Notes under the pieces: model-generated
Seen by the model: only the letters and a program-made list of their open reading frames with translations
What the model was told of the DNA's origin: nothing
Database searches by the model: none
Shown: one piece after another, positions 32,745 to 58,600 of the stretch
How positions within the stretch are numbered: position 1 is the stretch's first letter
How the letters are laid out: every line of letters starts with the position of its first letter
Program-made: the position numbers and the translations under genes
DNA from: Apus apus
Lineage: Eukaryota; Chordata; Aves; Apodiformes; Apodidae
DNA length: 64,000 bases
Reading direction: 5' to 3'
Assembly (NCBI RefSeq): GCF_020740795.1
Contig: NC_067283.1
Coordinates: forward strand, 39,483,659-39,547,658

Positions 32745-36486
<3,742 letters not shown>

Positions 36487-49500: not shown

Positions 49501-51330
49501 TCCAGAGCCACAAGTTACTATGCCACTTGTTTGTGGGGGGTCGGGAATACAACCACAGGATACCTGGTTGCAAAGGACCTCAAGGATTATCTGTGCAACC
49601 TTTCTTGGCAAAAGCACAGTGTAGACAAGATGGTTGCAGGTTACATGGCAGGTATAAAAACTTTGATGCTAAGACATTTTTCTCCTCCAAACACTGAAGT
49701 GTCTCTCATGTACTGCTGTGGCATTCCATACCTTCATGCTGATCATGTGGACCTATAGCATAGGAGTGGACAGGGCCATTTCTAAGGACTTCTTCACTTG
49801 GAACTCCAGGAGGGGAATTACACTGGTGACACTATCCCATGGCTACCCCCATCCAGCTCTACCTCCTGGACCTTCTCAGGAACACAACTTTTGGCTTCCT
49901 CTGATGTTGTGGACAAGGAAAATGAGGGGAAGGCTGGGTGATTGGGCCAATTTCTTCCTTTTGCCATACTCTGTCCCTGAGAGAAGTGCTTGGTTCTTGC
50001 AACCCACATGCGTGTGGGGAGCCACCTCAGGGAAGAAACCAAAGAGGGTGTAGTATTGGAGCATAGGGAGCAGTCCAAGGTCATTAAGGAAGGGGTTGAT
50101 CTGAGATATGAGAGAGAAGCAAAAGAAAGGCATTCTTGAAGATGGGTGTTGGGTGGTTCCAGGGCTGCAAAGTGCAGTGCCAGAGATGGGGCTGAAACTG
50201 CTATAATGATCCCTGAGAATGTCAAAAGCAGATGGTAGAAGATACTAGAAGCTGGAATCCCTCTGGGAGGGACAAAGTCCTGTCTTGGCAGTAAATAGGA
50301 GAGACAGAGATTGGGAGTAATAGCACGATGGCCTCTCCCTATGGCATCCTACAAAGCTGTGTATGCTGCCTTTCCCATTTGTCCCGCCAGGCAGGAGCAG
50401 CAGCATATGTCCTTGCCCACAAAGGAAGTGGAGGAGCAGTCTTTCTTTCTCTTTATTGGCCACTCTCAGGAATGGCGTCCATAGACCCGATAAACCTGGA
50501 GCCTCCCTTGAGCACCACATACTGCCTGCAGGCCAGGAGGACCTTTGGTCTGAGTGCCAATGCCTGCATACTCATCTTCTAATGCTGCCACCACCACCTG
50601 CAAATGGAAGTCTCCTGCCTTACCCAACAGCAAGAGCCTGAGTTCTGCAGTATTTTTAGGAGTGAGCATCTAGGGTTGGTAACCCACTGGTTAGTAAATG
50701 TTACACAAGTACCTGCTTTGCTAAAATAAATAAATAAGTAAACCCCTCAGAGATACAGAAAGCATGGGCAGAGAGGACTTTCTCTGCTGTTGTTCCTGAT
50801 GTTCAACATGGTTTCCTAAGAAAATCTGATTTATACACTACCTCCTCCTTTAACCTTGTTGGCCAGTTTCAGCTGTTGAGAGGTTTGACATGGCAGGATG
50901 GTCTAATCTCCAATACATCAAATTTGTGCTTGGTCCACAAAGACCAGCAGCAAACAAGACGAGCAAGACAGAGACCCAGCTTGGTGCCCCTAGCATGGGA
51001 GGGGAGGGTGGGACATTGTACCCCATTCCCAGCTGCTCCCAGGGCAGACTGGACTGCTCGGTGGCCAACCTAGTAGGCAGGGGCTGCATGGGAGAGCTGG
51101 AGGGACCTGTGGCAGGGCTTAGGAGACATTGTTTGGAGTCAGTGTGAGCAGGAGAACTGGGAACACAAGGAGGACAAGAAGCTTCTACCGAAGGAAATTG
51201 GGGCTGGGGGATGGGAGGGCCTGCCGGTGGCACTGGGTGCTGCATAAGAACCAAGAAAGGTGGATGCCTCCTGGCCGCTGGGCCGCAGGCAGAAAACCAG
51301 GAAAACTCACTCCTTTACCTGATTCGTGAA

Positions 51331-51411
51331 GTGAGGAAGCTCGCCCAAGCTGACCTGTTTACCTCATTTGAGAGGAAGCTCACCCAAACTGGGAGACGGT
51401 CAACTACATTT
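51331..51411 (+). repeat. Imperfect tandem duplication, period about 39-42
   Basis: GTGAGGAAGCTCGCCCAAGC..TTTACCTCATTT is followed directly by GAGAGGAAGCTCACCCAAAC..CAACTACATTT. It lies just upstream of the NR1D2 CpG island. Confidence 0.6.
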
Positions 51412-52278
51412 AGCTGCGTTTAACCTCATTTCACCTTACTGCTTCCCTCTCCGCACGGATGTGTAAGTCACCCCACGAAGCCACCCACCTCCCTCTGCCT
51501 CCCGCGGGCCGAGGCAGGACGGAGCTTCATTTGGGGCTGTGCGTGCACGCAACGGAGGTTCCCCCCCGCCCCAAACCCCCATCTCATCGCTGTGGTGGGT
51601 TTTCTTTGTGGGTTTCCTTCTGGGAGCAGGAGATGAGGGAAGGTGAGCCTCCCCGCCCAGGGCAGGGGCGTCCCCGCGTCACCCCCCCGGTGCAGCAGGT
51701 CCCCTGAGGACGCATCCCTCCTCGGCCGGGGGGGCGGGGGGGGCAGAGACCTAACTGCCTGTATTCGGGCCGACGCGGTGCGTGCGCGCTGGCGAAGGGG
51801 TCTCGCCGGGATTTCCCTCTTCCCCTGCAGTGAGAAAACAAGCGGCTGGCAGGGGACGGAGCGCCCGCGCTCCGACCTGTCAGACGCCGTGGTCGGGACA
51901 GGAGAGAGCTAATTAGCTGCGGCAATCAGAGCAGTGGCATTTCCTGCCGGTGCTCGGCGCCGGAGGAGCCCGCCGGCGGATGCTGACACTGCCCCCCGTC
52001 ACCGTGCCCCGCGGCGCGGCGGGCGCGTCCTCCCGCCGCAGCCGCGGGGCGAGACCGCCGCACGGCCTGCAGCAGCGGCGCGGCCCGGCCCGGCCCGGCC
52101 CGGCCAGCGCGGACGTGACTTCCGCGGGGTTCCCCCCGCCCGCCGGCCGCAGAGCCAGCCGAGGGGGCCTCTGCGCACCCCCGGTGGCGAGCAGGTCCCG
52201 CCGCCGCCGCCCCCGCGCCAGCCCCCGCCCCGCCGCCGCCGCCGCCGCAGTGCCCCCGCCGCCCGCACGCGCCCGCCG

Positions 52279-52284
52279 CACGTG
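52279..52284. promoter_or_regulatory. NR1D2: E-box CACGTG upstream of NR1D2
   Basis: A perfect palindromic E-box about 400 bases upstream of the start codon; a candidate CLOCK/BMAL1 or USF/MYC site. Confidence 0.6.
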
Positions 52285-52349
52285 AGCGCTCCCGCCCGCG
52301 GCCCGGGTGGCGCGGAAAGTGTGTCACTGGGTGAGGGGGGCGGCCGGGG

Positions 52350-52410
52350 GCGGGGCGGGCGCCGGGGCGGGGCGGGGCGGAGCGGGGCGGGGCGGGGCGG
52401 GCGGCCGGCG
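52350..52410 (+). repeat. GGGGC-rich array (Sp1 boxes, quadruplex potential)
   Basis: Repeated GGGGC pentamers with one GAGC interruption, then GGGCGGGCGG, just upstream of the NR1D2 leader. Confidence 0.8.
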
Positions 52411-52680
52411 GTGCCGCACTCTGCGCGGCTCCCGATCGCTTTTGTTGTAAAGGGGAGGGCGCCGCGGCGGGGACAGGCAGCTGCGGCTCTGACAGGCGAC
52501 AGCGCGGCCGCCGCGCTCCCTGCCTGCCTCCCGCCCCGCTGCACGTAGGGCTGCGGCGGGGACGCCCCTGGGGAGACAGTGCCCGAGCGGAGCCGTGCCG
52601 AGCGGAGGCGAGCAACAGCCGGGCCGAGCCCGGCGCAGCCCAGCGCGGCGCCGCTCCTGCCCCTGCGGGAGGAACCCGCC

Positions 52681-52696
52681 ATGGAAGTCAGCGCGG
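52681..52696 (+). CDS. NR1D2: NR1D2 exon 1 coding part (residues 1-5)
   Basis: ATGGAAGTCAGCGCGG encodes MEVSA plus one base of Gly, with donor GTAAGC. The exon's 5'UTR extends upstream in the CpG island. The tiny coding part is conserved in the family (human MEVNA). Confidence 0.95.
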
Positions 52697-55600
52697 GTAA
52701 GCGGCCGCAGCGGGCCGGGGGGAGGCTCTGCGGGGTGGTCCCGGCCAGCCGGGGCGGGTGTGGGGGAGGTGTGTGGGGGGGTGTGCAGGCGGGGTCCGGC
52801 CGGGACGCCGCGGGGCGGGGGCAGGTGGCGGGCGGCGGCGGTGCCCGACCCCGCTGGTGGCGGGGACGGCCGCGCGCTGCCTCACATGGACCCGCCGGGC
52901 GAGCCATGTGCGCCCTGTGTTTACGTTCCGCGCGGCGTGCCCGCTCATTGGCCGCGCGGGGCGGTGACGCGCGGATTGCATAATCGTGCCGGGGCGGCGG
53001 CGCGGGGCGGCGGGCGGCGCGGACACGTGAGGCGGGCGCTGTTTGGGTGACCTACATTCGGGGCGGCGGCGGCGGCGGAGGGGCGCGCCGGGGACACGTG
53101 GGGCCGCGCCGCTGCGGCGCTGCCGGCCCCGCCCCCGCCGCGCCGAGCCGCGCTGGAGCGGTGGGCGCGGTGCGGGGCTGTGCGCGTGCGGAGGTGTGTG
53201 TGTGTGTGAATGTGCGGGGCTCGGTGCGGCGCGGGCGCGGCGTCCTCACGCGCGCGGCCGTGTGCGGCGGCGGCGGGGCTGCCCTCGCGCCCCGCACGTG
53301 GACCGGCCCGGTGCGCGGGGCTGGCGGTTGTGTAACGGGAGGGGGCGGCCGGGGACAGGGCTGGGCCGGGCCTCCCCAGCCCGGCTCCGCGGGAGGGCAG
53401 GGAGAGCCGCAGCCCCGGCTGGAGGTGGGCAGGCTGACCCCGCTCCCTTCTCCTCCCGCCGTTGTTGCCGGTGGCGATACACGGGGCGGCGTGGCGGCCG
53501 GGGCAGCCCCTGCTGCAGCAGCAGCGCGCTCGGGGCCGGGTGAAGCCGTCGCTAACCCGGCCGGACCGCCGCTGTTTCACAGCCTCAGCGACAGCTTCCC
53601 ACGTCGCTTCTGAAACCAAGTCCCCGCGCGGTGCGGCCCGCCCCGCCGCAGCCCCCCCTTAGGTAAACAAACCCCTGACCAGGAGGACCCGAAAGGCCCT
53701 TGTGTCTCTGCCTGGCGTTCCTCCGCAGGAGCGCAGCTCAGCACAGCCGAAGTGATGTGTTTTCCCACCCTCTGCCGGGTTCCCTCAGCAGAGCCCCCCC
53801 ACCCAGGACAGCCTCCTGCACCAGGCACTGGGGTCCCTTTCCCTCTGCATGCGCTGCGGTGACCGTGGCTGTGCCCTTTGTTTCCAGTTGTCACCCTGTG
53901 CTGTGCTTCAGGTTCAGCTTTTAACTGCTGATCAAACAAAAAGCAGGGTCCGTAGGGGGATGTAACTTCTAAAATAACAAAGATTCAGGGAATCCTGACT
54001 GTGACACAGGCAAAACTTCCAAGCTCTCTATGGGCTCAGCCACCTGGGGCTCCTCAGGCAGGCTTTCAAAAAATAGGGGTGAAAACCCCCTAGCCATCCT
54101 CTCTGTGATCTCCTGTGTCATTGGTGTTACCTTTGAGGGAAAAGAGCTTTTTTTTTTTCCTTTTTTTTTTTTTTTTTTTTCAGTGAGACAAGGTTTAATG
54201 ATAGTGGGGCAGGGTGACAGCATGTGTTGTGCCCTGCTCTGCCCCTTGCTGATAAGGATGGTGCCTGCTGAGGAGCTGGGTGCCTCCCTTGGATCAGGTG
54301 GACTGTGAGCTTTGACCTGGCACCTGGCAGTGGCACGTGCAGCGCGTGGTGACAGCAGGACCTTTGTCAAAGAGGTGGTGTCTGACACTAGCCACGGGTG
54401 TTTGAGAGTGTCATAATCTTTTGTTTTTGTGGGACCTGTTTCCCCTTTGAAATCCTCCTTTCTCCAAAAACCTTATCTTGGATGCAGGCTACGCTTGTTG
54501 GAGGATTTAGTTAAGAAAATCAAGTCCGTGCAGGAACGCTGTGGTGGGGTGTAGGGACAGTGTAAGTGAGAAGCAGTCTGTGTGTAGTGCATATGTTGCA
54601 CGGCTGCTTGGTCTGGCTTCTGCTCTGGGTCAGTTCTGCCGGGGCCTCCTTGGCTGCACCCTCCTTACGGTGTTGGTGGTGCTTTCCACAGGAGAAAAAA
54701 TGTTAAAGAGAAAATGGGCCATTAAAGCTGCCACAGAAATGCTAAGAGGAACCAGAAATGCTAAGAGGGACCGTAAGAGGACAATAAAAGTAAAGAAAAT
54801 TTGCAAGTCAGAATTGCAACATGAAAGCAGTGATACTTCCAGAATTGTATAACATCACTGCCTTTGTCTCTGAGGAGGCAGTGGCTGATCTAAGGGGCTG
54901 CAGCCCCAACCTGCCATGCCAGCTGGGTTAATTGAGGACCCTACAGATGGCAGTGCTTTTTCCTCCAAGGGAAGGCAGTGCTTGGCCCTGTCAAAGTATT
55001 TGATTCTTAGCTCTGGTGTGGAGTTACTGCTGCGATGTCCTGAGTCGTGTGCAAAGAGACTCTACAGAGCAATACAGGCGTAAAACAGAGGGGATGCTGG
55101 ATGTTATTTATTTAAACAGTTGCGTGGCTTTCCCTGTTGAAATTTTTGTGTGAAACATCACATGTTTTTATATTGACTTTTGAAATGCTGAGTCTTGGAG
55201 ACAAAATCAAATGAAGTGAAAACAATTTCTCATGCTTACAAGCGAGAAAAAGGAGCCTGTGAAAAGCCAGAACTGCTCCCAGGTCTGCCTGAGGACAAAA
55301 AGCTGTTTCATCTGAGGGATTCTCAAGTGTGTCAGATTGCAAAATGCAGCGGGACAGAGACTGTTTGCAAGCAGCAGCCTGGCAGTTGGAGTTGAGCTGC
55401 TGCTAGGAATGCTACAAAGGCTTGCAGTCGGACAGACGGCGTTCAGCAGGCTGACCAGGCTGCAGCGCCATTTCTTTCCCTTGCCACCTTCCCTTTTGCA
55501 TCCTGGGCATTTCCCAGCCCTTCCTTTCTGTGCCTCTGGCGCGTAGCCTGCGTGAAGTCTTTGCTCTCTGCCCTATTTCTGTCTCCAACCCAGCTTGTTT

Positions 55601-58600
55601 GCGTTCTGGTTCAACAGCACTGTAAGATCCGGTCTTTGCTGTGGCTCTGGTTGAGCTCTGCGTGGAGGGCAGCTGGGGAAACCCTCTCTGGGCCACTCTG
55701 TGCCCTCTTCCCTGCTGCCTCATCCTGCCACCACCATGGCTTGTTGCTCCATGTTTTGGTTCAGCCGATTCATCTTGACCTGGGTCGGAGGAGGCCGATA
55801 AGACAGGGGAAGAGGATGGGGGCAGATTGGGAGGTCAGGTGTTGAAAATGAATGGAGAGAAGTGAGTTCAGGGGAGGGAGGGAAAGGAGTGCGCCCAGGG
55901 ACACGTGATGGCTGGGTCTGGCGGTGCTGGGTCACGGCGTGGCTCACATGGCAGCGGTGCATGTCTGCTTGTTATGTCACTACATGCTGCCTTTTTTTCT
56001 TGCCTTAGGGGGTGTGATAGCTTACATCAGCTCTTCAAGCTCGGCATCTAGCCCAGCCTCATGTCACAGTGAGAGCTCAGACAGCGGTTTCCAGTCATCC
56101 TCTTCGCCTGTACCATCTTCTCCAAACAGCTCCTCCTCGGAAGGTGGCTGCAATGGCCGGAGCAGCGAGGGCTCTGACGGGGCACCCAAGAGTGATCGGC
56201 TGGAGGAGACTATTAAAACAAACCAGTCGAGTGTTGCTGGTTTGACAAAAGGCCATAATGGAATCACAAGTATGTTTGGTGTTGGTGCCTGAAACCACAG
56301 TTTTTCCCCTTATATTCCCCTTATATTACAACCAGGTTTTCCGTGCGGTTTCCTTTGAAGGCACGTAGCAAAGCCTCCATTTTTATCTTTTTGTATGATC
56401 TGTATGGTAATACATATGGTCTCGCCATAGAAATGCTAGGAGATGGAGGTCCCATTGCTGCTGACTTCAAATGGTCCATAAATACAGTCCAGATTTACTT
56501 CAGATTTTCACTACTGTAAACTGTTCTTAATAAAAATCAAACACTTTAAAAGATGTGATGAAGTAAAAGGTAACAGTAATCGAAGACTGCCTTTGGGAGT
56601 ACTTATGGAGCAGTCTTGCAAATCTAGTTTCTCTGTTCTTTAATACTCCTTCCCCTAGCCCCTTACCTCCCCTCTTCCCAGATTTCTTTGAGAAACAAAA
56701 TAAACAAATTGCCGAACGTTCGTTATGTTTGCATAGCTGTATCCAGGACCTTTATCTTTTTTATTCCAAGTGTCAATTTGTGCATTTAGAAAAACAAAGT
56801 ACTCTCAAGATGGACCTACAGGATAGCCTTTTAAAACGCATTTAACAAGCTAGCTCCAGCTCTTTTCTTCATACTTTTTTTTTTTTTTTTTTTTTTTTTT
56901 TGTGATCAGAGAAGATTAACTATATTTGAACAGTTTGGGAAGGGTAAGAATCAAACTACTGAAATGTCTGTTTCAACAAGCTCTCAGCTGGAATTTAGAC
57001 TAGTTTTTGAATGCTGAATTCTTTTTTTTTTTGGCAGAATTATTTTACCATTTTGAATTGTTATGAAGCTAGAATAAGTATCTTAGCAGTTCTACCTTTA
57101 AAGTCTGTCTTGTATGTGTGGGGTTTTTTTAGTGTTCCTACCCTAAGTTCTTAGTAATAACCTTTACTTCCTCTTAAAAATTGGCCAGTAACTAGGTTTT
57201 TGGTATCGGGGCAGAAGTTCCTGAAGATGAAACCTGTTGTAAACTGTTTAGATGAATACATAGATGGGTAACATTTCTAGCTCATTTGGTGGTTTGGTTC
57301 CTTTTCAAAACCTTGGGGAGAAAAAAAAATAAATAGTTCCTGTTTACAAATTAAACCCAAATGTAAAATAAACTGCTTTTCTGGTAGAATATGGTTCTGT
57401 GGGAGTAATTCCAGCTGTCTCTGTTGCTCACTATTAAGGTGACATTATGGTTACTGAAGTCACTGGTAAAATTCCAGGTAGTGTCATTGAAACATATGTT
57501 ATACCAGCACTTAGGACTTGCAGAAAATCTGAATTGACAGATATATAAAATATGTGGGTAAAAACTTAAAAAAAATAATAAAATCAAACCATAAGTGTAT
57601 TTATAGGGCTGAGAAAGTATTCTCAAGTTGTAGTGTGTGTGTGTGACATTCTGTTTATGTACTCAGATGAGGAGGCTTTACATAAGCAGATGTAGTTGAG
57701 TTACCAGTCCTAAACTGTTATTGAATAAGTAGCGTGTATAATTTCTTTGCAACACGTAGTAAAGTGTACTTTTAATATTTCTGTTTTCTAAGAAAAGCTG
57801 TTTATTCTCCCTTGGACAAACTGCTGCCTTTATATGGGCTTAGTTGTCCTGGTGGAAAAACAGGCTGAGCCCAAACTTTGGTGGCCTAGTTAACTAAATG
57901 GTCCATGTGTAAATGTAAGCAGACTTTCTTTTTCTACAGTTGAGTATAATGCTACAGTGATTGAAAGCCCAATGAATATGTCCTTTCTCCCTATTTTGTT
58001 GAGTTTTTCATGTTGGTCTGTTTTCTCCCTCCCTTGCACTGGCACCTTCTGAACTGTTCAGGGTTTTTGTGCATTCTACTTGTCTGTTCCTCTGCTGTGT
58101 TTTTTTGTTGTGTTGAACTGACTTGGCATATTTTGGTTTTAGTTCAGGTTTTAAAAACTGCGAATGTGTTCCTGCAAATGCTCTTGGTTTTCTATATCCT
58201 TGGCTTTTCTGTTCTAATTCTAGAGTTTAATGGCATGGTGCTTCTTTGCAAAGTCTGTGGAGATGTTGCTTCAGGATTTCATTATGGTGTTCATGCCTGT
58301 GAGGGCTGCAAGGTGAGATATATTTCTCCTCATTTTCCTGCTGGTGAAACGTTCTGGGTTTGCCTATGTGGGAACAGGCATCATACTGCTGAAAAAATAT
58401 CAGTGCACTTTGCTACTAAACTTAAATCTGAGAAATTCCAAATGGTGGATAAATTGTGAGAAAAGGCAAACTGCTTAGCAATAGACAGCATCTTCCAAAC
58501 TCTGCAGTACCTTCTGTTCTCACCCCTTGTCCAATCCTGCCTGACCTGCAGTGCACAGCAGAGAACAAAAACTGGAGGCAGAGGTGGTAAGTACCATGTC

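Follow-up and report, generated by a model that had tools for sequence, protein, structure and literature searches.

In the vertebrate clock, the stabilising loop is completed by REV-ERB beta, and its gene in Apus apus raises the question of what kind of control sequence is a 154-bp interval of intron 1, at positions 52947 to 53100, in which binding motifs for several classes of clock factors lie close together. The original prediction took this interval to be a compact circadian enhancer; the same motifs could also belong to an ordinary promoter flank, to the core of a second promoter, or to a chance gathering in GC-rich DNA. We examined it within the window, i.e., the whole 64-kb stretch of DNA analyzed, to which all positions below refer.

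Results

As judged from the encoded protein, the gene hosting the site cluster is NR1D2. The human NR1D2 protein matched exons at 56008, 58217, 59236, and 60946, and the DNA-binding domain, once its exons were joined, hit PF00105, with NR1D1 as its best PDB match (E 5.8e-55). Matching of protein sequences to the window placed both neighbors upstream, RPL15 in three pieces on the plus strand (97.8 to 100% identity) and NKIRAS1 in three pieces on the minus strand. The start codon of NR1D2 lies at 52681, and the coding part of exon 1 (52681 to 52696, plus strand) reads MEVSA followed by a G split by the intron, with the donor GT at 52697. Intron 1 extends from 52697 to 56008, where its acceptor AG ends and reading resumes as GGVIAYISS; the interval begins 250 bp into it. 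Upstream of the start codon, 52201 to 52680 is devoid of any ATG, the 5' end of the transcript being putative here; mouse Nr1d2 mRNA has been reported with AUG-initiated upstream open reading frames and ribosome occupancy.

Direct reading and a motif scan both recovered the six motifs on which the enhancer proposal was built. The weakest are the NF-Y-like CCAAT box on the minus strand (52947 to 52951) and the CRE half-site TGACG on the plus strand (52965 to 52969), a common motif: CCAAT, although found only once in this CpG island, occurs 87 times in the whole window and TGACG 18 times. The D-box TTATGCAA (52976 to 52983, minus strand), of which the 64 kb holds three copies, is D-box#1 of Yoshitane 2019, and that work reports it as the top-scoring sequence among in vivo D-boxes of mouse liver and traces the older D-box definition to ten D-boxes from clock genes, Rev-erb beta included (PMC6687812). 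By exact scan, two CACGTG E-boxes lie at 53024 to 53029 and 53095 to 53100, among 13 in the 64 kb. Between them, at 53048 to 53058 on the minus strand, stands the single (monomer) RORE/RRE AATGTAGGTCA, the sole strict match to WAWNTRGGTCA in the 64 kb, which has the RGGTCA preceded by an A/T-rich stretch that defines a RORE (PMC4750502). A DR2 arrangement, i.e., two half-sites two bases apart, was not found in 52947 to 53100, and RGGTCANNRGGTCA was absent from the whole window. The interval is 79% G+C, with a CpG observed/expected ratio of 1.46. Of its 33 A/T bases, 24 fall within 46 bp of motif, a count that we did not use as evidence since it is largely circular.

The claim that three classes of clock elements would hardly come together by chance was borne out by a cluster scan, by shuffles, and by permuted motif trios. 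Scanning 154-bp neighborhoods with strict motifs (CACGTG; TTATGCAA or TTATGTAA; WAWNTRGGTCA) or with a medium set gave one merged three-class cluster in the 64 kb, namely 52947 to 53100, and a loose set gave four (three besides this one). Under Markov models of orders 0 to 2 built from the island minus the interval, the probability per given 154 bp of at least one motif of each class was about 2e-10 to 3e-10 (strict), 4e-8 to 6e-8 (medium), and 4e-5 to 9e-5 (loose), these figures multiplying motif rates as if independent and taking no account of the choice of motifs made after seeing the gene. The most permissive model tried, of order 2 and trained on the finding and its flanks, gave 6e-8, 1e-6, and 7e-4, respectively. 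We rate controls that keep real sequence, i.e., permuted trios and other CpG islands, above these Markov figures. When the 154 bp were shuffled 20000 times with dinucleotides preserved, no shuffle contained all three classes: at least one CACGTG appeared in 967 of them and at least two in 9, a D-box in 11, and the RORE in none. Moreover, we drew 3000 permuted trios, each made of a random palindrome with four G/C, the permuted letters of the D-box, and the permuted letters of the RORE. Clusters holding two or more E-like sites were formed by 0 of 3000 anywhere in the 64 kb, and clusters holding one or more by 1 of 3000 in the 64 kb and 0 of 3000 in the island, where permuted D-box and RORE versions occurred in 51 and 9 draws, respectively, and never together within 154 bp.

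The caution that GC-rich DNA raises the base rate of CACGTG was answered in part. The island portion from 51900 to 53650 has four copies against a shuffle mean of 0.48, a count reached by 2 of 2000 shuffles, and among the 24 palindromic hexamers with four G/C, CACGTG alone occurs there more than twice. Pure chance clustering in GC-rich DNA could still appeal to the four clusters under loose motifs, to the 7e-4 of the most permissive null, and to a motif set picked once the sequence, that of a known clock gene, had been read; with the strict and medium definitions, the shuffles, and the permuted trios all counting against it, we regard it as extremely improbable. The interval holds an E-box, D-box, and RRE composite of clean motifs, close together and beyond chance expectation.

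The CpG island around the interval is about 2.5 kb long (51321 to 53800) and also holds the main promoter region. In its promoter part, an E-box CACGTG at 52279 to 52284 is preceded, 7 bp upstream, by CACGCG (52266 to 52271), a tandem-like arrangement with one mismatch. Beyond the interval lies a further E-box CACGTG at 53295 to 53300, and at 53328 to 53335 on the plus strand is TTGTGTAA, D-box#5 of Yoshitane 2019. This downstream E-box and D-box form a second such pair, separated by 27 bp. On the plus strand, TTAGGTAA (53659 to 53666) equals D-box#7 and overlaps the donor-like AG/GTAAAC at 53661, which makes its meaning doubtful; the surrounding CCCCTTAGGTAAAC at 53655 to 53666 admits three readings, namely splice donor, splice acceptor, or D-box#7.

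The clearest candidate for a REV-ERB element may also lie in the promoter. Positions 52315 to 52334 (plus strand), where a degenerate DR2 is found, carry GAAAGTGTGTCACTGGGTGA, of which 17 of 20 bases, including an unbroken run of 16, agree with a human NR1D1 upstream primer printed in PMC5709507 and read as its reverse complement; that source states that the cloned NR1D1 fragment includes a response element for ROR alpha. Elsewhere in the window, the best agreement with the primer was 14 of 20. We take the matching NR1D1 stretch to be the RevDR2 through which REV-ERB alpha represses itself; in that case, NR1D2 would have its clearest REV-ERB element in the promoter and not in 52947 to 53100. 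The two stretches differ in their last half-site, GGGTGA in 52315 to 52334 versus GGGGCA in NR1D1.

E-boxes, D-boxes, and the RevDR2-like element are thus spread from 52279 to 53335 within one island, so that "compact enhancer" is too narrow a description. These further elements in the same island make the whole look like one clock-controlled promoter region. The window has five CpG islands that reach 400 bp or more; in the four others, which total 2660 bp, CACGTG and top-10 D-boxes are absent and a single relaxed RRE is present. Close to one of these four islands, but outside it, another CACGTG (32292) stands a short distance before the RPL15 coding exon at 32751. It is probably unrelated to the clock, and its place near RPL15 shows that an E-box on its own is no clock-specific mark.

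CACGTG is also a target of USF, MYC/MAX, TFE, and HIF-type factors, as is TTATGCAA of C/EBP. The interval may be an ordinary CpG-island promoter flank, with sites used by USF, MYC/MAX, NF-Y, C/EBP, and SP1, with clock input arriving through the E-boxes only, if at all, and with a coincidental D-box and RORE. Consistent with this, GGGCGG or its complement occurs at 52959, 52992, 53005, 53012, 53061, and 53129 (52901 to 53200 scanned), and the CCAAT and TGACG motifs are common ones. Rev-erb beta is treated, in the passages of PMC4650315, as a typical E-box gene with a peak at CT10, from which it follows that the RRE and D-box may matter little and that the E-boxes may be the main input. A gapped D-box/E-box/RORE pattern also gave one match in a large collection of microbial-virus contigs (viral_contigs), in an unrelated phage-like contig (L001) of 35% GC for which blastn against the window found nothing at E 1e-5; we rejected this match as chance. 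Against an ordinary flank stand the rarity of D-box and RORE at this composition in the shuffles, the failure of their permuted versions to meet within 154 bp in the island, and the other four islands with neither E-boxes nor top-10 D-boxes. On balance, we consider this reading possible and rather unlikely.

The original prediction had also placed a second transcription start near 53000 to 53150, for which we found no positive support in GC skew, TATA patterns, or splice donors. A GC-skew change usually marks the transcription start in CpG-island promoters. In 200-base windows, the skew was +0.02 at 51851 to 52050, then negative up to 52151 to 52350, positive from 52251 to 52450 (+0.18) through 53351 to 53550 (+0.08), and negative afterwards. 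The one change to clearly positive values thus falls between 52151 to 52350 and 52251 to 52450, and no second change was seen near 53000. Because the skew changes there, NR1D2 likely has a single main start near 52250 to 52350, beside the RevDR2-like element.

A second NR1D2 promoter core in intron 1, starting at about 53000 to 53150 and giving a different first exon, would fit the CCAAT box, the GGGCGG sites, and the CpG island, as well as the donor-like AG/GTAAAC at 53661, which with the exon 1 donor is the only donor found in 52601 to 54000 by simple donor patterns. It also has a parallel in the zebrafish paralog nr1d1, driven by two promoters, ZfP1 and ZfP2, according to the passages of PMC7069618. 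The uninterrupted skew speaks against it, as do the absence of a plus-strand TATA pattern from 52901 to 53200 and the position of the only two Inr-like matches in that segment (52944 and 52977), both before the proposed start. We therefore hold a second promoter to be improbable. A sigma-70 promoter and terminator scan relied on bacterial models and was uninformative for the NR1D2 region.

Discussion

We propose, with moderate confidence, that 52947 to 53100 belongs to a clock-responsive downstream-promoter region of NR1D2, located in the CpG island of the main promoter. This reading appears best in view of the intronic BMAL1 site of the mouse gene and of the joint BMAL1/REV-ERB alpha peaks reported on mouse Nr1d2, both being data for the gene and not for this stretch. 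Nr1d2 is also among the listed loci bound by BMAL1, CLOCK, and RELA. Motif quality, the statistics, and the published mouse occupancy thus uphold the part of the original prediction that saw clock input in intron 1, while its restriction to a compact enhancer gives way to a wider region. The cluster is most likely an instance of the already known clock-controlled promoter type of NR1D2 and not a new kind of element; given the mouse reports on the same gene, the clock-responsive reading is the expected one.

The closest known system is that of mouse liver, where one BMAL1 site was reported in Rev-erb beta, within an intron, and where Rev-erb beta pre-mRNA closely tracks BMAL1 binding (Rey et al. 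2011, PMC3043000). The same gene, an intronic position, and CACGTG E-boxes are shared with Apus NR1D2, whose intron offers canonical E-boxes as expected of an ortholog of the mouse site. The intronic sites of mouse Rev-erb alpha and beta, however, carry a tandem E1-E2 element with a 16-bp spacer (PMC3043000), which the Apus interval lacks: at spacer 16, the hexamers that would pair with the three intronic E-boxes all show four or more mismatches. This absence counts against simple orthology with the mouse intronic site. Weak partner hexamers with two mismatches stand at spacer 7 (53295) and spacer 17 (53024), a finding of little weight in GC-rich DNA, and a search of 52000 to 54000 for E1-E2 tandems with spacers of 6, 7, 16, or 17 and at most one mismatch returned only the CACGCG+7+CACGTG of the promoter E-box.

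Control regions of the paralog offer a second likeness. In the goat, ROR alpha and BMAL1/CLOCK activate the NR1D1 promoter, whereas NR1D1 itself represses it (PMC9035992), and like the zebrafish nr1d1 reporter (PMC7069618), this promoter combines E-boxes with a RORE/RRE in the control region of a REV-ERB gene. Both differ from the Apus interval in belonging to the paralog and mostly to its 5' flank, and the goat table, within the passages of PMC9035992, has one CACGTG among six E-boxes, few canonical motifs, and no D-box. In the Per1 core promoter (PMC6291157), CCAAT and TTATGCAA also lie close together near clock-gene E-boxes, in the order opposite to that of Apus NR1D2. Context matches, cores included, amounted to 13 of 20 around the D-box and to 12 of 18 and 14 of 18 for the best E-boxes, too weak for homology, which we rejected in favor of analogy only. 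As for the literature, none of the matches listed for printed AATGTAGGTCA or TGACCTACATT was on Nr1d2 by its title and the start of its abstract, and none of those listed for NR1D2, chicken, and E-box was on a bird NR1D2 promoter by its title or the start of its abstract. Publications matched by Nr1d2 with "first intron" or "intron 1" yielded no element-level description in the portions consulted, a result that makes no claim of absence from print.

Under the clock-responsive downstream-promoter reading, we infer the binding, the rhythm, and the direction of each effect from the motifs. CLOCK:BMAL1 on the promoter and intron E-boxes would bring the main daily activation. DBP/TEF/HLF would activate and NFIL3 (E4BP4) would repress through TTATGCAA, and DBP-type activators and NFIL3 may likewise occupy the other D-boxes of the region. 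Through the single RORE, ROR would activate and REV-ERB alpha and beta would repress, which would give the REV-ERBs a feedback loop onto their own gene. Acting at both the RORE and the RevDR2-like element, ROR and the REV-ERBs could add self-repression. NF-Y at the CCAAT box may keep the site and its chromatin open.

Intron 1 might go further and act as an integrator of three clock phases with its own REV-ERB-responsive site, doubling as a clock-gated second promoter with a different first exon. We consider this quite improbable; if true, REV-ERB beta would be supplied by two separate sources, the RevDR2-bearing main promoter and a second one that limits itself. The 16 consecutive bases common to 52315 to 52334 and the NR1D1 primer look like a sign of shared control between the paralogs, and a RevDR2-like element common to both genes would suggest that REV-ERB self-repression is older than the paralog split. 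Such a shared element would not overturn what is known from the mouse.
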